From Holophagae bacterium (GTDB taxonomy: Bacteria; Acidobacteriota; Holophagae; Acanthopleuribacterales; Acanthopleuribacteraceae): 64,000 nt of DNA. The stretch spans positions 310,001-374,000 of the forward strand of contig JAJCXM010000004.1 of assembly GCA_029263455.1 (NCBI GenBank). The letters are read 5' to 3'. Position 1 is the first letter of the stretch, and every line of letters starts with the position of its first letter. Shown piece after piece: positions 48,970 through 64,000 of the stretch. A program made the position numbers and the translations under genes. The notes beneath the pieces are model-generated. The model made no database searches, was not told the DNA's origin, and was given only the letters and a program-made list of their open reading frames with translations.

Positions 48970-49138
48970 AATAGTCACGCACTAGGTCACTCATTCGCAA
49001 CACTTGCAACGAGGATCAATAAAGCGCTAACCATGAATCAACTAGATGGAAGTACAAGCTATTTAGGCTTTTCAATTCCTCGACTAGGCGGTTTCATTCG
49101 GCTTGTTACCACACTGAACTTAATTGTAGGGCTGTTTG

Positions 49139-52100
49139 ATGTTGGTCGCTTTTCTATTTTCACTATGTGCCTTCGAGCACCCAAGTGCATTATGGCGATT
49201 CATTGGAGGTCCTAACGATGCGTTGCCAGAAGCTCAAATTCTGTCTATCCAACAGGATTCCTACGGGTTCATGTGGTTTGGAACTGGCCGAGGCATTATC
49301 CGTTATGACGGTTTTGAAGCGCGATGGTACCGACACGATCCAGACAACCCGAATTCACTTACGCCAGGAACCGTTCGTGTCGTAATGGAAGACAGTCAAA
49401 GGCGTCTTTGGGTGGGTACAAATGGCGGACTAAACTTGTTAGATCGCGTCACTGGTTTGGTTACCTCATTCACAATTCAAACGCATAGTTTACGGAGCAA
49501 CAATATTTGGTCATTACTGGAAGACCAACATTCACGCATTTGGTTAGGCAGCGACCAAGGATTACAAGTCATGGACGATCAGTCCTTTACGACCATCGCC
49601 GACATTCATGTTGGTGTTACTTCATTGGTACAAGATCAAGATGATCTTATCTGGATAGCTGCCGAAGATAGGGGCTTATTCTTCTACGATGGTGAGCACG
49701 TCAGGTCTGAGGAGGCATTCAAGGACATTCAAGTTCGGACGCTATATTGCGACCAAGAGGGGCTCCTTTGGTTGGGGACGACGGATCGCGGACTATGGGT
49801 TCGCGGAAAGCATGGCAACTTTGAACAGGTAAATTTGCATGGGAATCCAGCCCACAATAGTCATGTGACCTCCATTCACAAAGACGCCAATGACAGTTTA
49901 TGGGTAGGTACGGTTGATGGTCTTTATCAGCAAAACAGTGTTGGATTCACCTTGCACCGGCCAACAGAACAGAACAATGGCCTAAATGATTTAAGAATTA
50001 GGCGCGTCTTTTGCGATGATTCAGGACTTGTATGGGTGGCCACCGAAAAGCCGGGTGTTCATGTATTAGACCGAATGAGGGAAAGATTCGAATTCTCGCC
50101 GGTAAATTCTGGAGGCGCTTGGTCTCTATGGCAGGGTCAAGAAAACGAGCTTTGGATTGGCACAAAAAAGGGCTTACAACTCTTGCAGTTAGACAACTTG
50201 AATCGACAGACCTTTATGAGCGATCAGAGTATCCGGTCGATTTATCCCATTGACGAACAGAATCTCTTAGTTGGAACCGATGCAGGTCTATTCCGGCTGA
50301 ATCATCAAGCGAATCAGGTACAAACGTTACTTGACGGGGAGAGAGTTTGGGTAATTGTCGAATTTGAGGGCCAATTTTGGTTGGCAACTGACCGAGGACT
50401 CATCCTATTCGATATCGACAAGAGCGTGGTCATGCGATTGACGCCCGAAGCAGAGGCCCCTTATCAGATCAGTCACCGTGTGGTGACCTCGATTTGTCGC
50501 GGCAACGATCGCGACATTTGGGTCGGAACCTTTGGCGGCGGGCTCATCCATGTCCACTCAGATGGCACCATTATCGAGGTAATGCGTAACCAGACTCAGC
50601 GTGAAAGTCTCAGCGCGGATGATGTGATTGACGTCTTTATGGACCACAATCAGACATTGTGGGTTGCCACTTTAAGTGGCGGTCTCAATCGCATGATTAG
50701 CCCCAACAGATTTGAGCGTTTCACAAGTCGATCTGGCCTGCCAGACAATGCGGTCGTAGCGATCACCCAAGATAATAACGACGGCTATTGGATTTACACA
50801 GCAGCAGGTATCGCTTCTTTTGACCCTGATGCACGCAGCTATTCTTTGTTTCGGGACGAACACGGCGTGATGGTTGGGAGTGCGATCCCGGGATCTGTTG
50901 CAATGTTCGACGACCATTTATGGTTTGGGGGCACAAATGGCGTGGTTAAGATCAAGCCGAGCTTACAGGGGAATGAATCAATTCCACCCATCATGATCAC
51001 AGACGTGATGGTCGACAACATCCGGCGCCAACACATGCTTCCACCCGGTAGTGATCTCCATTTACCTGCCAATGAAAAGAGTTTTTCGATTAGGTTTGCT
51101 CGACTAGATTTCAGGTCACCCGCCACGATTCGTGGCGCGTACCAACGTGTAGATATTGACCAAGACTGGGTGCAATCAACAGACGTAAATTACACGCAGT
51201 ATCTCCCTTTCGGCGGGGTCGGCAAATTACGTATGCGGGCAGCCGATACTTATCAACGTTGGATCGACGATGAATTAGTTATCCACGTTGAGACGCCTTG
51301 GTGGGTAAGCTGGCTGCCGCTGTGGATAATCATTGGGCTGTTACTAATTACCTCACTTACCTATGTCATCATGGCGAGGATTCATCGCGCCAAACAACGT
51401 AAACTCATCGAACAGGCGCAACTCGCGAAGCAGCGAGCTCTGTTGGCAGAACGCCAACATGAGGTCGAGATCAAGGCTCGACAAATCCAGGAAGAACATA
51501 ATCAAATCATGCAGGAGTATTTGGAGCAATTATCTAACGAGATAGCAAACGAACTACATGACGGCCCTCTCGGCCGCATTACGGGCTTGGGTTTTCAAAT
51601 TCACCATCTCGGAGCAAGCCAAGACGAAGGTGAAATTCGCAAGCAGTTACAGCAAGTTGCTCAAGAGGATATTCCCCAAATCTGTGACGGCTTGCGCAAT
51701 CTGTGTGGTGAACTATTGTCACCTGACTTAAGGGAAGGACTGATCGCCGAAATGTCTCAATATGCTGAGACCGTGTGTGCACAAACACCCGGACTAACTT
51801 TAGTGACAGATTGGCAGGCGCAGATAGACGGCTTAAGCGACGAAGAACAGGGCACTCTCTTTCGCATATTCCGAACTCTGGTTAAGAATGTCAGTAAACA
51901 TGCACAAGCCAAGACACTTAAATTGTCATTGACACGAGATCCTTTGCAATTCATGTTAAGGATAGTGGATGACGGTTGTGGATTCGAGCCACCTGAAACA
52001 TGGGACGATCTAAAGGCCAAGCGCCACTACGGAATGTATCTTGCCCATTACTTCTGCACGTCGCTTGGAGGAACAATGCAAGTTGAATCTATTCTCCAAC

Positions 52101-52153
52101 GGGGAACCACCATAAATATTCGAATACCCAGAAAGTCATCGGTGGCCATATGA
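49139..52153 (+). CDS. two-component-regulator-propeller sensor histidine kinase
   Basis: A 1004-residue membrane sensor. After a signal/anchor (1-14) come about a dozen Reg_prop blades (30-630, each with a SLWVGT/IWLGS-type strand), a Y_Y_Y domain (about 640-715), one transmembrane helix (about 724-745), a coiled coil and a HisKA_3-type kinase. The phospho-acceptor His807 is in ELHDGPLGRI; the N-box (LVKNVSKHAQA), DDGCGF loop near 943 and the YGMYLAHYF / RGTTI G-boxes are intact. This is the NarX/DegS-like class that pairs with LuxR-type regulators; the large periplasmic propeller resembles those that sense oligosaccharides. ATG at 49139 is preferred to the TTG just before it. The end overlaps the regulator gene by ATGA. 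Confidence 0.93.
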   Translation: MLVAFLFSLCAFEHPSALWRFIGGPNDALPEAQILSIQQDSYGFMWFGTGRGIIRYDGFEARWYRHDPDNPNSLTPGTVRVVMEDSQRRLWVGTNGGLNLLDRVTGLVTSFTIQTHSLRSNNIWSLLEDQHSRIWLGSDQGLQVMDDQSFTTIADIHVGVTSLVQDQDDLIWIAAEDRGLFFYDGEHVRSEEAFKDIQVRTLYCDQEGLLWLGTTDRGLWVRGKHGNFEQVNLHGNPAHNSHVTSIHKDANDSLWVGTVDGLYQQNSVGFTLHRPTEQNNGLNDLRIRRVFCDDSGLVWVATEKPGVHVLDRMRERFEFSPVNSGGAWSLWQGQENELWIGTKKGLQLLQLDNLNRQTFMSDQSIRSIYPIDEQNLLVGTDAGLFRLNHQANQVQTLLDGERVWVIVEFEGQFWLATDRGLILFDIDKSVVMRLTPEAEAPYQISHRVVTSICRGNDRDIWVGTFGGGLIHVHSDGTIIEVMRNQTQRESLSADDVIDVFMDHNQTLWVATLSGGLNRMISPNRFERFTSRSGLPDNAVVAITQDNNDGYWIYTAAGIASFDPDARSYSLFRDEHGVMVGSAIPGSVAMFDDHLWFGGTNGVVKIKPSLQGNESIPPIMITDVMVDNIRRQHMLPPGSDLHLPANEKSFSIRFARLDFRSPATIRGAYQRVDIDQDWVQSTDVNYTQYLPFGGVGKLRMRAADTYQRWIDDELVIHVETPWWVSWLPLWIIIGLLLITSLTYVIMARIHRAKQRKLIEQAQLAKQRALLAERQHEVEIKARQIQEEHNQIMQEYLEQLSNEIANELHDGPLGRITGLGFQIHHLGASQDEGEIRKQLQQVAQEDIPQICDGLRNLCGELLSPDLREGLIAEMSQYAETVCAQTPGLTLVTDWQAQIDGLSDEEQGTLFRIFRTLVKNVSKHAQAKTLKLSLTRDPLQFMLRIVDDGCGFEPPETWDDLKAKRHYGMYLAHYFCTSLGGTMQVESILQRGTTINIRIPRKSSVAI

Positions 52154-52821
52154 CAGACAGGCGCGTATTGGTCGCTGAAGACGAGTTCTTCACGCGAGAA
52201 GGCATTGTCAAGTTGGTTAATGACTTTCCCGGATTCAAGGTCATCGGCCAAGCGAAACAAGGTAATGACGCAATCGAGATTGTCAGACGCGAGCAACCTG
52301 ACCTGCTTTTACTTGACATCCGCATGCCCCCTGGCCCAACAGGCATTCAAGTCATTGAGACGCTTAGATCACAACAATCCACCATATCAATCATCGTTCT
52401 GACCAACGAGAAACGTTATATCAAAGCCGCGCAAGAGGCTGGCGCAAACGGCTATGTACCTAAAGACAAATATCAAATGTTTCTGCCGACACTGCAATGC
52501 GTCATGGAGACAGGGAAACAGGTTTTCATTAATCCTGAATTTTCTGAAAACTACCTGGCTCTAAAACGGCGAGTCGAAGCAGCTGAACTCAACGAATCCG
52601 AACGTACGGTTTGGCGACTTCTTGCCTATCGAAACGAAGAAATATCTAGACGATGCCACAAGGCTGTCGGACGTGTACGAAACATTGTCACTGAAATCTA
52701 TTTCAAACTAGATATTCCCAAGAATGGGGAATTGTCGCAACGATTCCAGGCCGTAGAAATGGCTCGCATCCTCGGCACTCTTGAGGAACCCGAGCGTGAT
52801 TATTGTCACGAATATTGGTGA
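52150..52821 (+). CDS. NarL/FixJ-type response regulator
   Basis: The 223-residue partner of the propeller kinase. The receiver domain (1-125) has the acidic pair Glu10/Asp11, the phosphorylated Asp56 in LLLDIRMP and Lys105 in YVPKDK. The LuxR-type HTH (about 150-210) shows LNESERTVWRLLAYRNEEISRR and the recognition helix before FKLDI, slightly divergent from the consensus. The ATG overlaps the kinase TGA. Its targets may include the palindromes upstream of the operon or the secreted-protein gene that follows. Confidence 0.92.
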   Translation: MTDRRVLVAEDEFFTREGIVKLVNDFPGFKVIGQAKQGNDAIEIVRREQPDLLLLDIRMPPGPTGIQVIETLRSQQSTISIIVLTNEKRYIKAAQEAGANGYVPKDKYQMFLPTLQCVMETGKQVFINPEFSENYLALKRRVEAAELNESERTVWRLLAYRNEEISRRCHKAVGRVRNIVTEIYFKLDIPKNGELSQRFQAVEMARILGTLEEPERDYCHEYW

Positions 52822-52918: not shown

Positions 52919-53734
52919 ATGACAAACAGCCTCAAGTTCTTTTCCTTATTTACCATCCTCACATGTCAATCATTTGCACAAACAGTCATAGACGGCAATT
53001 TGACCGATGACTTTTCTAGCGCCATGGCTGCCGTTCAAGTTAATGCCGTGAACGAAGCCGGTACTATCTCTGCCACACTTTCCGACAGCTCTGGATTCTA
53101 TTCGTTTAGCGGATTAGCAGAAGGCACCTATGTGGTTTCAGCCGTGGCACCTGTCAACTATGAAGTAATGGCACCTGAATGTGGCTATGAGATTGTGTAC
53201 GTCGATTCAAGTGGCGTTGTCGCCGTTGACTTTTCGTTCGCACAGCGAACTGGTGGTGTCGCCGTTGATTTCGGTACCCCAAATGGAAGTGGTGGAGGAG
53301 GTAACTTGTTGGCCTTTGATGGCCAATCATTTGACGTCACCCTTTATGCCAGTAACTTGCTGACGTCTGGAACAGCACCACAGACCCTATCCGTTAGTGG
53401 GTACTGGTATGTTCCTGGTGTCGACTTGATCTATGCAGAAGCCTCAAATGGAAACCCTGCAGGGAGTTATGCGGCTGACTACATGGATATTTCGTTCACT
53501 AACTATTCCGACGGCAGAACAGAGATCGTGATGGAGAAAACCGACACGCCAAACCTAAATGTGGACGGTGCTATCGCAACCTTTACGTTTAACGTTAGCA
53601 AAGCGGACGCTGGTTTGTTGACAGAGGGAAACCATAATCTAGCCTTCTGCGTGGAGTCCGTTGAAGTCATAACTGCGACTGCGACCATTGATAGTTACGC
53701 TAACGCATGGGTCGGTAAGTTATTACCTTTATAA
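52919..53734 (+). CDS. secreted carboxypeptidase-regulatory/cohesin-like protein
   Basis: A 271-residue exported protein with signal peptide (1-20, ending SFAQ), an N-terminal transthyretin-like beta domain (about 22-110; DSSGFYSFSGLAEGTYVVSA) and a C-terminal beta-sandwich (about 115-265) with alternating strands and a Gly-rich hinge, resembling cohesin-type modules. GGGAG is 9 nt before ATG. It starts 97 bp after the response regulator on the same strand, so it is a plausible target or cotranscribed output of that system. The stop overlaps the convergent transglycosylase gene by 6 bp. Confidence 0.75.
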   Translation: MTNSLKFFSLFTILTCQSFAQTVIDGNLTDDFSSAMAAVQVNAVNEAGTISATLSDSSGFYSFSGLAEGTYVVSAVAPVNYEVMAPECGYEIVYVDSSGVVAVDFSFAQRTGGVAVDFGTPNGSGGGGNLLAFDGQSFDVTLYASNLLTSGTAPQTLSVSGYWYVPGVDLIYAEASNGNPAGSYAADYMDISFTNYSDGRTEIVMEKTDTPNLNVDGAIATFTFNVSKADAGLLTEGNHNLAFCVESVEVITATATIDSYANAWVGKLLPL

Positions 53735-54484
53735 GGCACTGTTATTAGCACTCATTGTTTGTAATCGTTGATAAACGGCCAGAACTTTGTCCGCATAACC
53801 GTTATTGTAGTCTTTGCCATTCATGAGGGCCATATCAACAGGACCGGGACCACGGTTATAGGCAGTGAGTGCCATTTGGTTGTTCTTGTACATCTCTTGA
53901 TAGAAACCCAATATTTGCAATCCGTACTTTAATGAAATCTCCGGATCCGTTAAATCCCCAGACATTCCAAGCACTTTTTGCCATTGGGGCATCACCTGCA
54001 TGAGCCCCAATGCGCCTTTATTTGACTCTGCCTTGGGGTCGAACCTTGATTCGATGTGCATGATGGCCAGTATTAAATCGGTATCTTGAGAGTAAATGCT
54101 GGCATTGCGATGAATGACCTTTGCGATTGAGGCAGCTAATTCTGGATCAATATCTGGTTTCAATATATTGATCTTTAGGTAGATCACATCTTCTGATGTC
54201 TTGCTGCCTACAAACTGTCTTAGCCTGACTAACTCGTCGTTGAGCGCATCCGTTTTGCTCTCTAAATGGACGACCTGATTGCTTTGAATCGCTATCGATT
54301 GTTCAGTCATACGACTGTAATAAACAACAAACGCGCAGGCTGTAACCACTGCAATTTGACCGACGAAATAGATCATGACTAACGGAGATGTCCAAGTAAG
54401 TACTACATCCTCTCGTTTTGATAAGGCTCGGCGACTGGGTCGATCCCCGGCTGATTCTTGGGTCAGTTGATCAACGGCTTCCAT
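53729..54484 (-). CDS. membrane-anchored lytic transglycosylase (SLT domain)
   Basis: A 251-residue protein starting at ATG 54484 (GGGAGG 6 nt upstream). A cytoplasmic tail of about 40 residues is followed by one membrane helix (about 45-65), a coiled coil (about 68-95) and a C-terminal SLT lysozyme-like domain (about 115-240). The catalytic Glu is in HIESRFDP, with the GALGLMQVMP and TAYNRGPG motifs. These enzymes cleave peptidoglycan glycan strands to 1,6-anhydro products. An open frame extends about 53 codons further upstream but lacks a signal or ribosome site. Confidence 0.9.
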   Translation of the reverse strand: MEAVDQLTQESAGDRPSRRALSKREDVVLTWTSPLVMIYFVGQIAVVTACAFVVYYSRMTEQSIAIQSNQVVHLESKTDALNDELVRLRQFVGSKTSEDVIYLKINILKPDIDPELAASIAKVIHRNASIYSQDTDLILAIMHIESRFDPKAESNKGALGLMQVMPQWQKVLGMSGDLTDPEISLKYGLQILGFYQEMYKNNQMALTAYNRGPGPVDMALMNGKDYNNGYADKVLAVYQRLQTMSANNSAL

Positions 54485-54777
54485 GTTGGCCTCCCATACT
54501 CGATTTGTTGTGAGTCGTACCTGGAATCTGCAACCTAAACAGCAATATCGCAAGTTTTTGCGGGCTAACAGTGGTGGGTTTGGAAACAAACGAATGAGAT
54601 CGATTGCGGGTATCACTGCTTTTGCGAAAGAAAAAAGCGTCAATTCGTTTTTTTTGAATCCGCACGACGTTGGTTGGCGTATGGGGGTCGAACAGTCGAA
54701 TAGGGAAAGATGCGAAAATGAGACTTTCTAGTCAATCGCCCTGTCATCATCGGAGAATGGGGAACAAGATATACACT
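54485..54777. other. 293-bp divergent gap between transglycosylase and sigma factor
   Basis: No gene or clear sigma70 promoter is visible. Two GTCGAA hexamers 8 bp apart (54687-54692 and 54695-54700) lie about 80 bp upstream of the sigma-factor start and could be an activator or autoregulatory site. A short A/T-rich hairpin followed by eight T is at about 54616-54655. Confidence 0.35.
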
Positions 54778-55341
54778 ATGACCACCGAACCCATGATTGA
54801 ACGACAATGGCTACCTGCACATATTGCAGGCGACCCCGATGCGTTCCCGGCCCTAATGAAGGCTTACAAAGGACCTATCTATAGCTTCTTGATGCGCTGT
54901 CAGGTCAACGATCTAGTTCGTGATGATCTATTTCAAGAGATCTTCATTAAGGTTCACCAAAACGCCCAATCGTACGATCCAGGTCGCGCACTTAAACCAT
55001 GGATATTTACGATTGTTGTCAATACCGTTCGCTCTCATTTCCGCAAGAAAACACCACAGGGACCTGTCGCCGTAGATATCCTCGCAGATGATGCACCTTC
55101 AAGTCAGCAGATCGTTGAAGCGAACGAGACACAGCGTTGGCTGACCAAGCAATTGAAATCCTTACCCGACCCACAGAGAGACGTCGTCCTTCTTCATTGT
55201 TTCCAAAAGCTGACCACGGTTCAGATAGCCGACATACTGCATAAACCCTTGGGCACAGTAAAAACACATCTGCGGCGCGGTCGCCAAGCCCTAATTCAAG
55301 CTTTCTCACGCCGTGAACCGCGAACGGGAGGTAGGTCATGA
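54778..55341 (+). CDS. ECF-type RNA polymerase sigma factor
   Basis: A 187-residue sigma factor from ATG 54778 (GGGGAAC upstream; an ATG at 54757 is possible). Region 2 (about 20-85) has DLVRDDLFQEIFIKVHQN and ALKPWIFTIVVNTVRSHFR for -10 recognition; region 4 (about 125-180) has LPDPQRDVVLLHCFQKLTTVQIADIL and the GTVKTHLRRGRQAL helix for -35 recognition. The last 4 bp overlap the start of the fusion gene with a ZAS-like anti-sigma N-terminus, the classic coupled sigma/anti-sigma arrangement. Confidence 0.93.
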   Translation: MTTEPMIERQWLPAHIAGDPDAFPALMKAYKGPIYSFLMRCQVNDLVRDDLFQEIFIKVHQNAQSYDPGRALKPWIFTIVVNTVRSHFRKKTPQGPVAVDILADDAPSSQQIVEANETQRWLTKQLKSLPDPQRDVVLLHCFQKLTTVQIADILHKPLGTVKTHLRRGRQALIQAFSRREPRTGGRS

Positions 55342-58037
55342 AACCTAAATGTTCCCAACTTCAAGATAAATTGAGCATCGGCGATCAAAAACTGAATGAC
55401 AACGAGAAAGAGCATCTCGATAGTTGTCCTATGTGTCGACTTTTTGTCACGTCAGCAGATTCATTCGACGAGTTCATCTCACAAACGCCTGAAACACAAC
55501 CTGACGACGAATTGGTTGCCCGCACACTCGCTGCAGTCCAGGACACACCCCTCTCTGCCCGGCCAAAGACAAACGGGAGACGATTCATGCGTTCTCATAA
55601 AGCTGGCATCGTGGCCATGTTCGCTGTCGCTGCGACGCTTTTGCTTGCCATTTTCTTGCGGCCGTCCCAAGTCACACTTAGCACGCCTGATACGGAACTG
55701 CTCAGGGACTTAGAAAACGCCCAGCCTGCAAAGCTCAACTTTGAGAAGACAGGCAGAATCGAAGCAGGTTCAGAGACAAATGAGCTACCCATGGAGAGCG
55801 ATCTCGTTGAGGGCGAACGATTGGATCATGATGTCAGACGTCGTCGCGACAATTCGGACAAGAAAGACAAACCCGCACCTTCCCTCGAAAACGGTTCCTT
55901 TTTTGATCGAAACAGCGGACTCGTAAGTGCTGACGAGGACGCGCTCCGAACATTAGGTAAATCCAAGCAAGAGGGTGCCGCGGAATCAACGACATCTGAT
56001 CGACCGGAAGTTGCCTTAGAGGCAAAACTTGAGAAAGGCACGCGCCAAAAAGCAAAACCGCAGAAGTCGGATCGCAGTGATAGACCTGTAGATCAGCTTG
56101 AACAACAACAGGCACTAAACGAGCTCAGGTCCATTGCAGAAGACACCGCCAGTCGACAACTAGTTATCACTAGGCGCACAAGACCGTCCTATCCAGATAG
56201 CGCGGCCCGGCTTTCCATTTCAGGTACTGTCGTACTTGAGGCAATCTTTGCCAAAGATGGAACTATTCGCGATATCCGAGTGATTCAATCAATTGGCGAA
56301 GCTCGATTTGGATTCGAAGAGGCTGCCATCAAATGCCTCAAGAGCTGGGAGTTCACACCCGCCCACGTGAACGGAAAGCCTATTGACAGGAAAATGACGA
56401 TCCCAATCGACTTCACTTTGAGCAATGTTCACGAGGCCGAAGAAAGTACGGACGACAAAAAGTTACCCCAGTTACCTGGGCCAGTGCAGTCATTCATGGA
56501 TGACTATCAATCCATAGACGACATCGTCACCTATCCTAACGACGGTTTTTGGGCTAACACATACATCCCTGGCGATCCCGCGTTCCGCGCCCTTGCCGCA
56601 CAGCTAACCGAACAAATCGCATCGCTGCCAGCGTTTATGCTGCCCATGCTAGATCCATCCATTTTCCCGGCGAGAAAACCATTCGACGCCCCTTCAGATA
56701 GAGCGATGTCACTATCCGTGAGCGCGAACAAAACTTTTGCTCAAGGCCCACAACGCACCCTTTTACAGATTGGATTGCAAGGTGCTGCATTTGGCCAAGG
56801 TCATAAACCCAAATTACATACGGCAATGATTTGGGACTTACCGCCAAATTTGGAAACACATGAACGCGCCAATTTTGAAGCCTTGCTAGCCGCTATGCTT
56901 AAGTCAAAAGGCAGTGAAGACCAATGCGCCCTATTCATCGCAGGCCGAAAAACTGCCATCGACGTTCCCCCTCAATCGTTCAGGTACGGCACACTAGAGA
57001 TTGCCAAACGAAAGGCGTTTTCAACTGATCCTATTGGCAACCCTGTATCTTTAGCCACGCAAATAAAGCAAGCCGCTCGATCTTTTGGCGTTGATCAGAA
57101 CGAGTTGACCTTGTGTCGATCAATCTTGATCGTTAGCACGAGACCCTTTGATGAATTAGCGACAATTGAACTTATCGCCCAAGAATGTGCTCGCGTCGGG
57201 ATCCAAGTAAGCGTTATTTCTGCGGGAAACAAAGTGCCCGTTGAACATCTCGATCGCGTGGCTTTGGCAGGCCGAGGTTTTCGTCGTCTGATCAACGATC
57301 CTCACGAGGCCGAATCATTAATCAACCGTCAAATCCATGCAGTCAGTCAAGTAATCGCACGTGGCTTAAGTCTGAGAATAAAACTAGCTGAAGGCGTGAA
57401 ACTTGTCCAGATTCTAGGTTCTTACCCGCTGAACCAAGTGCAAACTGAACACGTTAAGGCCGTCGAAAAAGACATTGACCGGCAGATGGCTGTAGAGTTA
57501 GGGATCCCAGAGGATAGGCATCTAGACGAAGACGGTATTTTGATCCATTTGCCATTATTCATGGCAGGCGATCAGCACATTATTTTGTTGGACCTCGTCA
57601 CCTCTGAGGCCGGAGCAGTCGCCGACGTGGGTTTACGTTACAAAGATCTTATTTGGTCAAGAAACACGATTGATCGCGACCACTTTTCCTTGTCCGCCAC
57701 ACCCAAATCCACAACGCCAAGCGAATTCCAGGTTCACAAGAATCTCTACACCTGGCATCTAAGCAGTACATTACGACAGGCACATAAATCTGTTTGTAAC
57801 CAAGACTATGCCACAGCCCTTGAGCTGATCTCGACATTCAAGCAGCAAACCGAAACCTTTATGTATACAACCAAGGGCTTTAAGTACGACCAAGAAATGC
57901 CCCACTATTTGTCTACACTAACCGCTCTTGAGACGATCATATCGACGGCTCACACATTGAGCCAACCCAACCTAACACACGTTTTGGCCTATTCAAGCAT
58001 GGCGATTAACCAACGTCCCATTCCTCTCTCTTTTTAG
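55338..58037 (+). CDS. anti-sigma (ZAS) / TonB C-terminal / degenerate VWA fusion protein
   Basis: An 899-residue membrane protein. Residues 1-40 have a zinc anti-sigma motif HxxxCxxC (His26, Cys30, Cys33). A transmembrane helix follows at about 88-107, then a charged disordered linker (110-270), a TonB_C domain (about 274-360; YPDSAARLSISGTVVLEAIF, EEAAIKCLKSWEFTPA) and a region (about 385-720) laid out like YfbK-type VWA proteins, where the MIDAS DxSxS is replaced by DLPPN around residue 500. The C-terminal part is helical. ATGA overlap with the sigma gene. Probably holds the sigma factor at the membrane and responds to an envelope partner (inference). Confidence 0.75.
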   Translation: MKPKCSQLQDKLSIGDQKLNDNEKEHLDSCPMCRLFVTSADSFDEFISQTPETQPDDELVARTLAAVQDTPLSARPKTNGRRFMRSHKAGIVAMFAVAATLLLAIFLRPSQVTLSTPDTELLRDLENAQPAKLNFEKTGRIEAGSETNELPMESDLVEGERLDHDVRRRRDNSDKKDKPAPSLENGSFFDRNSGLVSADEDALRTLGKSKQEGAAESTTSDRPEVALEAKLEKGTRQKAKPQKSDRSDRPVDQLEQQQALNELRSIAEDTASRQLVITRRTRPSYPDSAARLSISGTVVLEAIFAKDGTIRDIRVIQSIGEARFGFEEAAIKCLKSWEFTPAHVNGKPIDRKMTIPIDFTLSNVHEAEESTDDKKLPQLPGPVQSFMDDYQSIDDIVTYPNDGFWANTYIPGDPAFRALAAQLTEQIASLPAFMLPMLDPSIFPARKPFDAPSDRAMSLSVSANKTFAQGPQRTLLQIGLQGAAFGQGHKPKLHTAMIWDLPPNLETHERANFEALLAAMLKSKGSEDQCALFIAGRKTAIDVPPQSFRYGTLEIAKRKAFSTDPIGNPVSLATQIKQAARSFGVDQNELTLCRSILIVSTRPFDELATIELIAQECARVGIQVSVISAGNKVPVEHLDRVALAGRGFRRLINDPHEAESLINRQIHAVSQVIARGLSLRIKLAEGVKLVQILGSYPLNQVQTEHVKAVEKDIDRQMAVELGIPEDRHLDEDGILIHLPLFMAGDQHIILLDLVTSEAGAVADVGLRYKDLIWSRNTIDRDHFSLSATPKSTTPSEFQVHKNLYTWHLSSTLRQAHKSVCNQDYATALELISTFKQQTETFMYTTKGFKYDQEMPHYLSTLTALETIISTAHTLSQPNLTHVLAYSSMAINQRPIPLSF

Positions 58038-58094
58038 TCAAAACCTAACTGCCTAATTGCGACGAGTTCCTAACTCGTATGCCAGGAGTGCGTC

Positions 58095-61000
58095 ATGTTC
58101 CCTAGAAAACCAACTTTGCTGTCGGTTCTTATTATTTTTGTTGGCTTCAACCAGATTTTGGCCCAGGAATCCAATGAGGAGGGAACGGTCGAGTTACCAC
58201 TCTCTAGCTATAACCAAATGCTGCAGACCGTTCAGATTGCATCGCGCCCCCACGCTACACCAGCCCCATACGCGCTTTCAAGCGGCACAATGACAGTTGA
58301 TATCTCGGCAACAAAATCGGCCTATCACGCCACCGTGACGACAACTTTTACCGCACGCATATTTGAGGATGAATGGGTTCTGGTTCCGGTTTTACCGCTG
58401 GGAACCGCCGTCGAATCTGCGACCGTCGACGGACAAGTGGTTGCCCTAGTTCAACATCCGGGCGGACTGATGTGGAACACGAATAAAAAGGGTCAACATA
58501 GCCTAAACCTAACTTATCGACAGCCAGTACAATCTGTGAACGATAATTCCTCTTTAACTATTCCTAGTCCGCTTTTGCCAGCCATTCAGTTGCGTCTTCG
58601 TCTAAATAAAGCCAACCAAGATATACAAATCATGCCTGCGATTTCGCGGACCACTAAATTTGACCCACACATGACTGAAGTCAATGCTTCCATTCCAACC
58701 ACATCAACCATTCAGGTTCACTGGCAAAACCCAGGTGGTCGTCAGTATCGATTTACCCAGGCTAAGTACATTGCTGAGCAGGAAGGCAACCAACTCAAAA
58801 TACGCGGCGAAATTTATCTACACCTAAATGACAAACAATCGCTGGATTTGCCCTTACTTCCCGATAGCGTCACGCTGAATAAGGTTACCGTCGACGGAAG
58901 AGCTGCTTTGGTTGACGTGGTTGACGGAAAATTCACCGCCGAAATTAAGGGCGTGGGCGATCACCGTGTAGATCTTGTGTATCAAGTTCTCATTCGATCC
59001 GACCAAGATCCACCAAACATAGAAATTGCTCTGGTTGAGGTCCCTATTAGTGAAATAAAGCTCACACTGAACGGGCACAAAGACATCAAATCTAATCCAA
59101 ACACAACCCTTGCGGGGACCTTTGAAAAAGACAAGACATCAGTCACGCTGTTTACGCCTATGAGCAACGTTGCCGCTTTCTCTTGGACAGAAGCCGTGCC
59201 CGAAAATCTCACCCAAGAGTTTCGTGCCAACGCCCACGCGGTACATGCCGTTCACGTTGATGAAGGCGTCTTAATGATCAATGCCTGGCTGGATATTGAA
59301 GTCACCCGTGGAGAGAGCTCAACGTTAGATATTCTGTTGCCAAGAGAGACCCTTATCAATGACGTTGTCGGTAGTCAGCCAAGTGTCTCCGAATGGACGC
59401 TGATGGAATCAAATGATCCTAAGAAAATTAAGCTGCGCGTTTTTCTGAATCGTAAATTGAGTGATCGTGGTTCTTTAAAGTTAATTTATGAATTGCCCTT
59501 GTCCGAAAATGACCAGGTCAACGTACCGTTAGTGCAAGTATTGGGCATGAATCGGCAACGAGGGATGATTGCGCTTTTATCCAACCGAGTTTCCGCCATG
59601 ACGCCAACCGTAGAAACTAACTTGTCAGCTGTGGGCGAAAACCAAATACCAGCTGCCATTCGAGAGAGTATTGAAATGGTTATCGCCCATACGTACAAAT
59701 ACACTCAAGAAACACCCGTTTTGTCTGTAGAGCTAGCAGAACCGGAATGGGTCCAGGCAAAGTTCAACATCTCAGCCGACACCTTAGTTTCGTTGGGGGA
59801 CGTTTCTTTGCACGGCTCATCCAGTATTGATTGTCACATCAAATCCGGACAGGTTGAATCGCTGAAATTCAAACTGCCAAAGGAAGCCACTCTATTGCAC
59901 CTTTCAGCGCCCTCGTTGCGGGACTACAAGACAGAACTTAACGAGACAGACCTGTTGGTCACCTTGACATTTACGCAGGCCCTAAAGGGCCAAATCCGCA
60001 TAGATATGGACTACGAGCAAATCACAGACAATCAACAGCATCTGCTAATCCCGAGTCCCATTTGCCTAAACGCAGATATTCAACAGGGTCGCGTAGCTGT
60101 GGAAGCCTTATCTGCTGTTGAGGTACAAACCAGTAAGATGGTGAACTTAACCGCTTTAGATTTGCATGAGTTACCCCAGCAGCTCATTCTCAAAACAACC
60201 AACCCTATTCTTGCCGCATATAAATATGTTCGAGTGGTGCCAGCGACCCAGCTTGTATTAAGTGTTAAACGTCATCAACAGTTAGACGTCCATTCGGCAA
60301 GTATCGATCAATGTCATTACACAACGCTGGTTACTAGCGACGGATTATCGGTCAACCATGCGGTGTTTAAGATGCGGAATCGCAGCGAACAATTCTTACG
60401 ACTGGCGATTCCAAAAGAACTCGAGATATGGTCGGTCTTCGTTGCAGATCAAGCCGTTAAACCCGCTATCATTGAATCCAACGCCACGGCTGGTTCTGAA
60501 AATGAGCTGCTAATCAAAATCATCCACTCGTCGAACCCATTCGATATTGATATTGTTTACGCGTTACCTATCGATAAGCTCGATCGATTGGGCCTCATAT
60601 CTGAGAAATTGCCTCAGCCAGATATCAACGTTACTCAGACCTATTGGGATCTCTATTTACCCTCTCAAATGCGTTATGGTCGGGTGGATAGCAATATGGA
60701 ATTATCGCAGGAAGCAAGAATCCTGCATGAGCAGGACATGCATAAGGCGCTAAACGCCACATTCGCGCAAAACACAGACGCCTTGCAACTCAATGTTCCA
60801 CGCACCGGTGTACACTTTCAATTGCATAAGCTATATGCCAATCGCGCTGAAAAAGCCCCGTACTTTCAGGTAACCTACTTAACTGGCACGGGATCGGGTA
60901 CGAGTCAGATCCTAAATTTGTTGGCCATTATCACCTTGTGGCTGACCATAACGGGCCGTTTCAACATCAGATCCCGCCCCATACATATATCGACGATCAC

Positions 61001-61154
61001 AGCTTGCATTCTCTATTTGTGCTTAACGATCTTGGTGCTAAAGGTGAGGTTGGCACCCGCTCTAGGGTTAGCGGCAATACTCGCTATTTTCACCTTGTTG
61101 AGACGTTTTGAAATCAAGCTACCTTGGCTAAATCGTTCCAAATGGCACAGCTAG
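58095..61154 (+). CDS. giant exported membrane protein of unknown family
   Basis: A 1019-residue protein with signal peptide (about 8-26, ending ILAQ), a very long extracytoplasmic region (27-920) of repeated beta-sandwich character with recurrent L-x-Y-x-L-P strand pairs, and two to three C-terminal membrane helices (about 930-990) with a short basic cytoplasmic tail. The N-terminal VELPLSSYNQML / YALSSGTMTVDI pattern recalls large hypothetical proteins in Planctomycetes and Myxococcota (memory only). CAGGAGT lies 8 nt before ATG, 57 bp after the fusion gene. Likely a structural or sensory partner of that protein. The stop interlocks with the next convergent gene (CTAG). Confidence 0.75.
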   Translation: MFPRKPTLLSVLIIFVGFNQILAQESNEEGTVELPLSSYNQMLQTVQIASRPHATPAPYALSSGTMTVDISATKSAYHATVTTTFTARIFEDEWVLVPVLPLGTAVESATVDGQVVALVQHPGGLMWNTNKKGQHSLNLTYRQPVQSVNDNSSLTIPSPLLPAIQLRLRLNKANQDIQIMPAISRTTKFDPHMTEVNASIPTTSTIQVHWQNPGGRQYRFTQAKYIAEQEGNQLKIRGEIYLHLNDKQSLDLPLLPDSVTLNKVTVDGRAALVDVVDGKFTAEIKGVGDHRVDLVYQVLIRSDQDPPNIEIALVEVPISEIKLTLNGHKDIKSNPNTTLAGTFEKDKTSVTLFTPMSNVAAFSWTEAVPENLTQEFRANAHAVHAVHVDEGVLMINAWLDIEVTRGESSTLDILLPRETLINDVVGSQPSVSEWTLMESNDPKKIKLRVFLNRKLSDRGSLKLIYELPLSENDQVNVPLVQVLGMNRQRGMIALLSNRVSAMTPTVETNLSAVGENQIPAAIRESIEMVIAHTYKYTQETPVLSVELAEPEWVQAKFNISADTLVSLGDVSLHGSSSIDCHIKSGQVESLKFKLPKEATLLHLSAPSLRDYKTELNETDLLVTLTFTQALKGQIRIDMDYEQITDNQQHLLIPSPICLNADIQQGRVAVEALSAVEVQTSKMVNLTALDLHELPQQLILKTTNPILAAYKYVRVVPATQLVLSVKRHQQLDVHSASIDQCHYTTLVTSDGLSVNHAVFKMRNRSEQFLRLAIPKELEIWSVFVADQAVKPAIIESNATAGSENELLIKIIHSSNPFDIDIVYALPIDKLDRLGLISEKLPQPDINVTQTYWDLYLPSQMRYGRVDSNMELSQEARILHEQDMHKALNATFAQNTDALQLNVPRTGVHFQLHKLYANRAEKAPYFQVTYLTGTGSGTSQILNLLAIITLWLTITGRFNIRSRPIHISTITACILYLCLTILVLKVRLAPALGLAAILAIFTLLRRFEIKLPWLNRSKWHS

Positions 61155-61510
61155 TGTTTCGGTTTCGATTTAAAGATAGGCGTGAATTTCTCACGAACGC
61201 CATCCAGGGATATGCTTTCCACATAATAAAAATAGGCCTTGCCGGGTTCAATCGACAAATCATCGTATTGGTAGACACTCGTTTCATCAGTGTTGCCAGC
61301 ACCCGTAATTGGATCCTTGTTTAGCTGTTGGAAAGGACCTTCTTCACTGTCACCGCGGTGAACGTTAAAGCCAAAGTTGTTCTGCTCACTTGCAGTGGAC
61401 CATTTAATGGAATTCTTAATGGGTTCTTTCTCGGGAGCATCCTGAGCAATCAGTCCAATTCCACTTAATGTAAAAAAAAGTAGGATTAGATTGAGGTTCT
61501 TCTTAGGCAT
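61151..61510 (-). CDS. small exported fibronectin-III-like protein
   Basis: A 119-residue protein from ATG 61510 (GGGAG 10 nt upstream) with a signal peptide (1-22, ending LIAQ) and one Fn3-like domain: IKWSTASEQNNFGFNVHRGDSEEG-type strands, then YYVESISLDG. Fn3 modules of this kind often occur in surface proteins and next to sorting domains. It lies 45 bp downstream of the C25 peptidase gene on the same strand, so it is probably cotranscribed and may be a partner or substrate. Confidence 0.72.
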   Translation of the reverse strand: MPKKNLNLILLFFTLSGIGLIAQDAPEKEPIKNSIKWSTASEQNNFGFNVHRGDSEEGPFQQLNKDPITGAGNTDETSVYQYDDLSIEPGKAYFYYVESISLDGVREKFTPIFKSKPKH

Positions 61511-61555
61511 GATTACAAGCTCCCTTTGAGAAAAGAATTTAGACATTATCAATTT

Positions 61556-64000
61556 CTAGCGCCCGGATTCCAGCGCTGGCGTACTTACTTGTTTGTTAGC
61601 TAATTCTTTGAGATCCAACCCACCAACGGCCTCGTTTTGTGTCTCAGAATCCCACAAATAGACCCGCAAGTACCGTGTCTCTTTTTCAAGATCTGCAGGA
61701 CTGTACTGTATCTCAAATCGTCCTTCGTGAAGCGCAAATTCCTCACTGCGGATGGTATCGCCTTTGTTATCTAACCAATCCAAAACACCGTGCCCTTCTT
61801 GTAAGCAACTCGCAACGCCGTGAACCGATCGGTTCGATTCTCCTATAGAAACTTGGTCCAGAACGACACATTTGGTTGGATGAGCCAGAGGAACCGCAGG
61901 ATCACCTAGCAAATTATAGGTTTCAACCAAGGTGCGATTCTTAATTTTGCGTTTCGCGTTATTCATCGCTTCGCCAACCGTACCCGGTTCCGAAAACGCT
62001 TCCATATACGGGATTTGCATGGCCATATGCGGGCTGTTACGCCAGGAGGCGCCAATGACGGCAATGGCGCCCTTATCTGGCAAGCGCAGGAATTTCTCGC
62101 CTATGGAGTCTGCGCCCGGATGATCGAATGGCGCTGAAAAACAAGTAAAACTCAAGACGATTGGCGTGGCCTTGGTTGGCGCCAATTGGTCAAGGTCGGC
62201 AAGGGTGAACAAATCGTGGTTCTTTTTGGGATCTGGTGGACCGGTACGCCAGATGAAACGGCCACCGTGTCCATAAAAATAGACTAGGTATTGACCTTGG
62301 TCAAACGCATCCAGTATACGCCTGGTATTGGCTTCGTTACCGGCTTCGGTCGAGTCTGGATAAACTTTGTCCGAAACAAAATCTTTCTCCATCATTTGAG
62401 CGACCAGGCGGTCACTTTGTGATTGAAACGATTTCATATCGTTGGTGATCCATAACGCGTTACGTCGCCACGGCCCAACGTTCTTTTGTTCCATGTAACT
62501 CAACGTCTTGTCAACAATGGCGCGAACCTCATCCGGTTGCGTGACCGGGAAGCGACCAATCGCAATATCGGGATAAAAATCATTACCATCCACACAGGCA
62601 AGACCGCTATCGCTGGCGGAATGCCCACTCGAGTTAAAGAAATCGAGCGTCGGAATTAGGTTACGGGAATTTGAGCGTTCGCCTTCATAAGGCGTACTTG
62701 GGATAGAGGCAAGGATTAGGCCCGAATTGCGCGGGTGATCCGCATAATTTTGGTCTATGACCTCAGCGTTTTTCGTGTCCCAACTGGCATCACCCACCAA
62801 CAACGCATACCGCGGCGCCGGTTCTTGCCACTGGTGATAGGCATAGCTCATGAATGAACGGATGGCATTTGGATGAATAATGCCATGATTGAAAGCATTG
62901 TAGATATCCTGGATATTGACGGCTTTTACAGTCAAGCCGCGTTTTCGATGTGCTTCGATTAATGGTTGGACCGGTTCAAGCAAACGCGGGTGATAGACGA
63001 CGATGTAATCGGCTTGATTCTTCTCATCCCTGAGATCGTTCGCTTCTATTTTCTCGATATGATCGAGTCGGTATAGGTTTTCTTGTGTGCTGGTTGTGAA
63101 CGTTTCTTGGGTAGGTACCTTGAATCTCCAAGCCACGTCTTCCTTATGTTCCCGAGGCGCTTTGACCACGTATTTATGGCCGAGATCCGTGTAAAGTCCT
63201 AGTTCCTTCCCTCGGGTTTCTATCCATTTTTTTTGCCCTATTTTCGCTTCCGAAAGGAAGAATCTATCTTGCCCGATCTGGTTGGCAATCGCGCTCTTCG
63301 GATAGGAAACTTCAAGGCTATTCAGAATGGCCACATCGATCATCCACTTGTCCGCTTTGTCTTTGCGAATAGGAATCTGCAGCGAGATGGTGTTGGCCCC
63401 TTTGTTCAACAACGACACCGGAATGTCACTAACGGCAAAAGAATAAGGCTGCTTACCGTCCCAAAGTTCTTCGCGGATCTTTTTGTCGTTTAAAAACACA
63501 TTCAAGTGATGGTCTTTGACCTCTTGGCCAGGAATACTCGACCAACCTCGCATGTTAAATGTCAGGCTACAAAGGCTGTTACTTGTTTCAAGTAAATCGT
63601 CGAAGTTCAAAGTGACAGAGAACGGCTCTTTGTCATTGCAAGCAAGTTTATGCCAATACCAAATTTCGTGTGCTTCATGGCTAGAACTATTGAACCGCAT
63701 TAATACCGTGTCAACTTCATGATGTTGCTTGGACAAAAACGCTGAATCCAGCAATTCCACATGACCGATCTTGCGTGCCTGTTTGATTTTCGTTTTCGCC
63801 TCTATGCTTGGCGATGTATCGAATTTCAACAGATACACATTGTGAGCTGAGTATTCGTGAAAATGACTGACAGCTCCTTTCAAGGTTTCAGCTCTAAACT
63901 CGAGGCTATCGCCAGGACCGAATTTCGAGCCATCGCTGCTGTTAACCCAGAGCGGCACGCCGTTTCCACCCTGCTCTAATGATATTTTGCGTGCATCCCA
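61556..64000 (-). CDS. C25-family (gingipain-like) cysteine peptidase, 5' end outside window
   Basis: At least 815 residues; the frame is open through base 64000, so the start and signal peptide are missing and a GTG at 63958 is internal. After a beta-rich pro/accessory region (to about residue 320 of the visible part) comes the peptidase C25 fold with DYIVVYHP, LLVGDASWD, GRFPVTQPDEV, the catalytic His in YFYGHGG and the catalytic Cys in SFTCFSAPF, then a short C-terminal beta domain (YSPADLEKETRYLRVYLWD). Gingipains and PorU are of this clan and act at the cell surface in adhesion or secretion. The Fn3-like protein follows. No Por/T9SS genes are in the window. Confidence 0.9.
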   Translation of the reverse strand, partial: WDARKISLEQGGNGVPLWVNSSDGSKFGPGDSLEFRAETLKGAVSHFHEYSAHNVYLLKFDTSPSIEAKTKIKQARKIGHVELLDSAFLSKQHHEVDTVLMRFNSSSHEAHEIWYWHKLACNDKEPFSVTLNFDDLLETSNSLCSLTFNMRGWSSIPGQEVKDHHLNVFLNDKKIREELWDGKQPYSFAVSDIPVSLLNKGANTISLQIPIRKDKADKWMIDVAILNSLEVSYPKSAIANQIGQDRFFLSEAKIGQKKWIETRGKELGLYTDLGHKYVVKAPREHKEDVAWRFKVPTQETFTTSTQENLYRLDHIEKIEANDLRDEKNQADYIVVYHPRLLEPVQPLIEAHRKRGLTVKAVNIQDIYNAFNHGIIHPNAIRSFMSYAYHQWQEPAPRYALLVGDASWDTKNAEVIDQNYADHPRNSGLILASIPSTPYEGERSNSRNLIPTLDFFNSSGHSASDSGLACVDGNDFYPDIAIGRFPVTQPDEVRAIVDKTLSYMEQKNVGPWRRNALWITNDMKSFQSQSDRLVAQMMEKDFVSDKVYPDSTEAGNEANTRRILDAFDQGQYLVYFYGHGGRFIWRTGPPDPKKNHDLFTLADLDQLAPTKATPIVLSFTCFSAPFDHPGADSIGEKFLRLPDKGAIAVIGASWRNSPHMAMQIPYMEAFSEPGTVGEAMNNAKRKIKNRTLVETYNLLGDPAVPLAHPTKCVVLDQVSIGESNRSVHGVASCLQEGHGVLDWLDNKGDTIRSEEFALHEGRFEIQYSPADLEKETRYLRVYLWDSETQNEAVGGLDLKELANKQVSTPALESGR

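Follow-up and report, generated by a model that had tools for sequence, protein, structure and literature searches.

The ECF factors form the largest group of alternative sigma factors, yet few of the anti-sigma factors that control them have a signal-receiving part that is understood. YfbK is a widespread protein whose role is unknown. The layout of ArnB, which combines a VWA domain with a beta-sandwich and a helical part, has been noted also for the predicted YfbK of E. coli (PMC12852372). Inner-membrane-tethered vWA force transducers comprise a transmembrane (TM) helix, a long linker and a vWA head (PMC12204202), and in the FoxA/FoxR system, a periplasmic partner protects the anti-sigma factor from proteolysis (PMC11637429).

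The locus described here belongs to a Holophagae bacterium and lies in a stretch of 64,000 nucleotides of contig JAJCXM010000004.1, which is denoted the window. An ECF sigma factor gene, the gene of an 899-aa fusion protein and the gene of a 1019-aa giant protein follow each other on the + strand (the trio). The features of the locus are:

54654..54681, + strand: putative ECF-type autoregulatory promoter, TTGAATCC-N14-GGCGTA (match to the block that precedes the orthologous gene in G001, another species of the genus)
54718..55341, + strand: ECF sigma factor gene, with in-frame ATG codons at 54718, 54757 and 54778 as candidate starts (Pfam, orthologs)
55338..58037, + strand: fusion gene, encoding an anti-sigma domain, TM helix, linker, TonB_C and YfbK-like pseudo-VWA part (ORF, Pfam, hhalign)
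55338..55592, + strand: predicted ZAS anti-sigma domain, residues 1-85, with ligands C5, H26, C30 and C33 (ligand alignment, PDB profile matches)
55602..55658, + strand: TM helix, residues about 89-107 (hydropathy)
56181..56420, + strand: TonB_C domain, residues 282-361 (Pfam E 7e-18)
56478..58034, + strand: YfbK-like part with a VWA domain without MIDAS, beta-sandwich and helical tail, residues 381-899 (hhalign, Foldseek)
58095..61154, + strand: giant exported membrane protein gene, 1019 aa (ORF, alignments, profile comparisons)

The original prediction for this locus, made from the sequence alone, placed the three ORFs where they lie and noted the ATGA overlap between the sigma gene end (55341) and the fusion start (55338). 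The sigma gene was located and identified correctly, with the start to be chosen among the three ATG codons. Its product matches the Pfam families Sigma70_r2 (E 7e-14) and Sigma70_r4_2 (E 2e-13), and thus contains regions 2 and 4 but lacks region 3, the composition that defines ECF factors; orthologs were found in nine other trio loci. Divergent from the sigma gene is an SLT transglycosylase gene (53729-54643, - strand), with the putative sigma promoter just beyond its start, and farther upstream, a Reg_prop two-component sensor (1005 aa) overlaps a response regulator gene (49136-52821, + strand). On the other side, the end of the giant gene has a 4-base convergent overlap with a gene for a small exported protein (61151-61552, - strand), located beside an 800 aa ORF encoding a Peptidase C25 (gingipain-type) protein (61556-63958, - strand, E 3e-78).

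The co-conservation on which the idea of a three-gene unit had been staked was found. A profile search of genome contigs with a two-row alignment had the sister species (G001, contig JAGQSC010000027.1, 'Acidobacteria bacterium isolate HKST-UBA04') as its sole match; the trio order and the ATGA overlap are the same there, with identities to the window of 53% for sigma, 30% for the fusion and 41% for the giant. A profile of the two giants, run against 396 genomes of the phylum, detected four further full-length giants, and a six-row giant profile, run against the 149 genomes of one class (that of G401), another five. Among the 11 genomes with a full-length giant, all of them from one phylum, Acidobacteriota, the giant is encoded directly downstream of a fusion-type gene in every case (in G424, the adjacency is read across contig ends, C781 carrying sigma and the N-part of the fusion, and C39 its C-part and the giant). 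The sigma gene precedes the fusion in 10 of the 11, the exception being G386, and all three genes share a single contig in nine; in G453, the contig ends before the giant gene does. The ATGA overlap and the trio order recur in all nine loci that could be assessed. When the same 149 genomes were searched for the head of the fusion, full-length heads and full-length giants were found in the same eight genomes only. Within Acidobacteriota, the possibility that the three genes are not co-conserved is thereby ruled out.

In an all-against-all comparison of the loci, the trio genes, along with their antisense shadows, were the only consistently common genes, and no conserved flanking genes were detected beyond them. 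The trees of sigma, fusion and giant share their main split, which separates the window's genus from the rest, whereas the finer branches are mostly unresolved. Judging from these comparisons, the trio is a genuine unit whose genes have been inherited jointly in several families of Acidobacteriota. That they are a chance neighbourhood of unrelated genes has a negligible probability: we found no point in its favor, and the co-occurrence in the same 8 of 149 genomes, the kept order and overlap and the non-conserved flanks contradict it, so that it can be considered refuted within this phylum. Literature searches, with subscription journals mostly outside their coverage, yielded no paper on sigma-YfbK pairs or on the trio. 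Within that reach, and given the co-conservation, the view of the trio as a unit not described before is supported.

The genus form of the putative promoter, TTGAATCC-N13/15-GGNGTA, occurs once in each of two genus genomes. A related form, KGRAACC-N13-CGRGTA, lies at a fixed distance of 36 nt before the sigma start in G401, G453, G423, G424 and G425, with variants in G357 and G426. Genome-wide, this form produced 23 matches compared to 45 for the reversed control, that is, not above control, and was rejected as a marker of a genome-wide regulon; trust is therefore limited to the matches upstream of trio sigma genes. Because the patterns were derived from these same loci, their presence there is no independent evidence. 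Their non-recurrence elsewhere suggests that the sigma factor mainly serves its own operon.

The anti-sigma motif HxxxCxxC, recognized in the original prediction, turned out to be part of a complete set of zinc ligands, C5-H26-C30-C33, which we take to be of the ZAS type by comparison with RsrA/ChrR. These residues are invariant in eight of the nine aligned fusions, the zinc motif being lost in G357. The top three matches of the anti-sigma region profile in the PDB, all with weak E-values, are DdvA (E 0.012), RsiW (E 0.017) and RslA (E 0.064). Together with the ligand set, these weak matches lend support to reading residues 1 to about 85 as a class I anti-sigma domain. The TM helix, also anticipated, is the single one in the fusions and is followed by a linker of 177 to 362 residues. 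In G386 (L068:5362-7869), the fusion lacks both the sigma gene upstream and the anti-sigma domain, and retains the TM helix, linker and head, with the giant downstream.

The TonB C-terminal domain was likewise predicted and is present, but not as a core part of the fusion. It was also detected in the fusion of G001 (E 2e-11) and is absent from all eight fusions examined outside the window's genus; TonB_C is thus genus-specific. The fusion of G344 (L070:5468-8410) contains, between the TM helix and the head, CarboxypepD_reg (E 5e-11) and a sub-threshold match to Plug, which places an N-terminal piece of the receptor type within an anti-sigma protein. In the remaining fusions, this slot is a bare linker without any domain. 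Apart from TonB_C, the periplasmic part of the fusion matches no Pfam or NCBIfam family. A FecR domain had no Pfam match in the fusion, and no TonB-dependent receptor gene is conserved next to the trio, the neighbors in the window being other genes; the fusion is accordingly not of the FecR type, as originally argued. The suggested role in cell-surface signalling was not borne out, given that TonB_C is missing from the fusions examined outside the genus and that the putative promoter points to a regulon consisting mainly of the operon itself. In favor of a TonB-linked reading, which we regard as unlikely, are TonB_C in both species of the genus and CarboxypepD_reg in the same slot in G344 and in split relatives of the giant; the restriction of TonB_C to the genus and the lack of a FecR domain and of a conserved receptor gene nearby speak against it.

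The YfbK-like character of the C-terminal part, and its loss of MIDAS, were both borne out. In an hhalign comparison of 10 fusions with 17 Acidobacteriota YfbK proteins, the probability was 99.3 (E 5.9e-20), and a single-sequence phmmer search with YfbK already found the G344 fusion. An AlphaFold model of the fusion from two sequences has low confidence (pLDDT 48.7), and its top PDB matches in Foldseek are VWA proteins, with ArnB in first place. By profile and fold comparison, this part is a diverged YfbK/VWA. The DxSxS MIDAS is lost in all 10 fusions and intact in all 17 YfbK proteins; DVSA is all that remains of the metal site in G453. YfbK_C (PF12034) had no Pfam match in the window's fusion (P0002) or in its nine relatives.

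The giant contains the predicted signal peptide and C-terminal TM helices, with a conserved LPLxxYxxL-type motif right after the signal peptide and a beta-rich body. It matched no Pfam or NCBIfam family, and no PDB profile match was obtained at E-values of 10 or below. AlphaFold, run with two sequences, produced a model with a pLDDT of 38.8, which was for that reason excluded from the fold search. Within-family profile comparison resolved two tandem pairs, one at residues 52-372 (P 97.6 and 96.7), the other at residues 372-735 (P 95.8 and 94.7); residues 733-830 weakly resemble residues 215-304 (P 62). Internal duplication gave rise to the giant. Shorter relatives, often split into two adjacent genes, occur in other Acidobacteriota and in the window's own genome (L036:2279-6132, G000 C25), where P0008 matches the giant (P 91.7) and the match of P0007 is not significant. 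Further split giants are found in L073, L077, L081-L085 and L151-L153, often with the LPLxxY motif near the N-terminus. Some split giants contain CarboxypepD_reg, and they generally lack an adjoining sigma gene; no conserved neighbors were identified in 18 such loci, and no giant relative in a plasmid search. Identification of the giant with BatD was rejected (no Pfam match, hhalign probability of 0.5% or less).

We propose that the trio is a self-regulated envelope module, a reading to which we assign a probability of about one half. The zinc anti-sigma domain would hold the ECF sigma factor at the membrane; the fusion would cross the inner membrane once, its long, charged, proline-containing linker bearing the periplasmic pseudo-VWA head. 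This head most likely serves as a metal-free protein-binding surface, which may contact the co-encoded giant, itself a presumed periplasmic beta-domain protein anchored via its C-terminal helices. If the head were left unsatisfied, by too little giant or by envelope disturbance, the fusion would be cleaved or changed and the sigma factor released; by transcribing chiefly its own operon, the sigma factor would restore the complex. TonB_C in the linker of the window's genus, or the TonB-receptor N-terminal piece of one other lineage, would connect the module with TonB-dependent traffic at the outer membrane. Shielding of the anti-sigma factor by a periplasmic partner, as in FoxA/FoxR (PMC11637429), would be an analogy only. 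As no family match exists for the giant and its structural model could not be used, the contact between head and giant is a guess from gene linkage. As G386 keeps the TM helix, head and giant without sigma and the anti-sigma domain, head and giant are probably the functional core, with sigma control as an addition. That the two form an undescribed trans-envelope complex, which senses its own assembly via the fused anti-sigma domain and is linked to outer-membrane transport by exchangeable TonB-system domains (TonB_C, CarboxypepD_reg/Plug) depending on the lineage, is a tentative, possible extension.

The same genome, G386, can be read in favor of a structural or trafficking envelope machine made of head and giant, the dosage of which would be set by the sigma and anti-sigma factors with no outside sensing. 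The single occurrence of the genus promoter pattern per genome fits such a machine, as does the fact that in 11 of 17 loci, a canonical YfbK gene likewise stands behind an ECF sigma gene. However, a membrane-spanning ZAS anti-sigma factor with a periplasmic C-terminal half usually transmits a periplasmic state, and sigma and anti-sigma are retained together in 10 of the 11 genomes, so we consider pure dosage control somewhat unlikely. The "envelope machine" half of the original reading is plausible, as an inference.

Far less probable is the reading that the fusion works as a vWA transducer of force, tethered to the inner membrane and pulled by a motor of the ExbB/TolQ type. The TM helix, long linker and YfbK-like vWA head do fit the published outline (PMC12204202), but the SHLS motif, a mark of the TM helix of TonB as well as of these transducers, is absent from all 10 fusion TM regions examined, no ExbB/TolQ-type motor gene is present among the annotated neighbors within the window, and the cytoplasmic end is occupied by the anti-sigma domain. 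The self-regulated module remains our preferred reading. It presents an anti-sigma factor fused to a VWA head without a metal site and tied to a giant family without a Pfam entry, a concrete candidate for a sensor-partner pair, and G386 offers a natural deletion that would separate signalling from the core function.

Among known systems, class I ZAS anti-sigma factors (RsiW, DdvA, RslA, ChrR type) share with the fusion the zinc-ligand pattern, the TM helix and the adjoining ECF sigma gene, but not its extracytoplasmic part of about 790 residues with TonB_C and the pseudo-VWA. FecR/FoxR regulators combine, similarly, an anti-sigma function, one TM helix and a periplasmic domain, and in the window's genus, the link to the TonB system is common to both; the fusion differs in its lack of a FecR domain and of a conserved adjacent receptor. 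BatB/BatD resemble the trio in that a VWA protein has an exported, beta-rich partner, and BatB is the best PDB profile match (E 0.003), but the giant is not BatD by profile comparison, and separate batD genes are present in the six trio genomes searched.

The closest counterparts are the loci of canonical YfbK, where an ECF sigma gene lies directly upstream in 11 of 17 cases in Acidobacteriota, the window's own genome included (L032:6101-9189; also L157 and L160-L168), which suggests that YfbK often belongs to sigma-controlled envelope modules in this phylum. Such pairs of an ECF sigma factor and a transmembrane YfbK (for example, G000 C8, L032) exhibit the ATGA overlap, an anti-sigma-like N-terminal region, a TM helix, a linker and the YfbK VWA domain, as in the trio. 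Canonical YfbK retains the DxSxS MIDAS and YfbK_C, and L032 has no giant downstream, whereas the trio fusions have lost the MIDAS, give no match to the Pfam model of YfbK_C, have the zinc ligands and are followed by the giant. In the sigma tree, the sigma factors of the canonical pairs fall across a weakly supported branch (66/88) from those of the trio. The trio is therefore best filed, on present comparisons, as a derived variant of the sigma-YfbK arrangement, with an additional, undescribed family of giant proteins.
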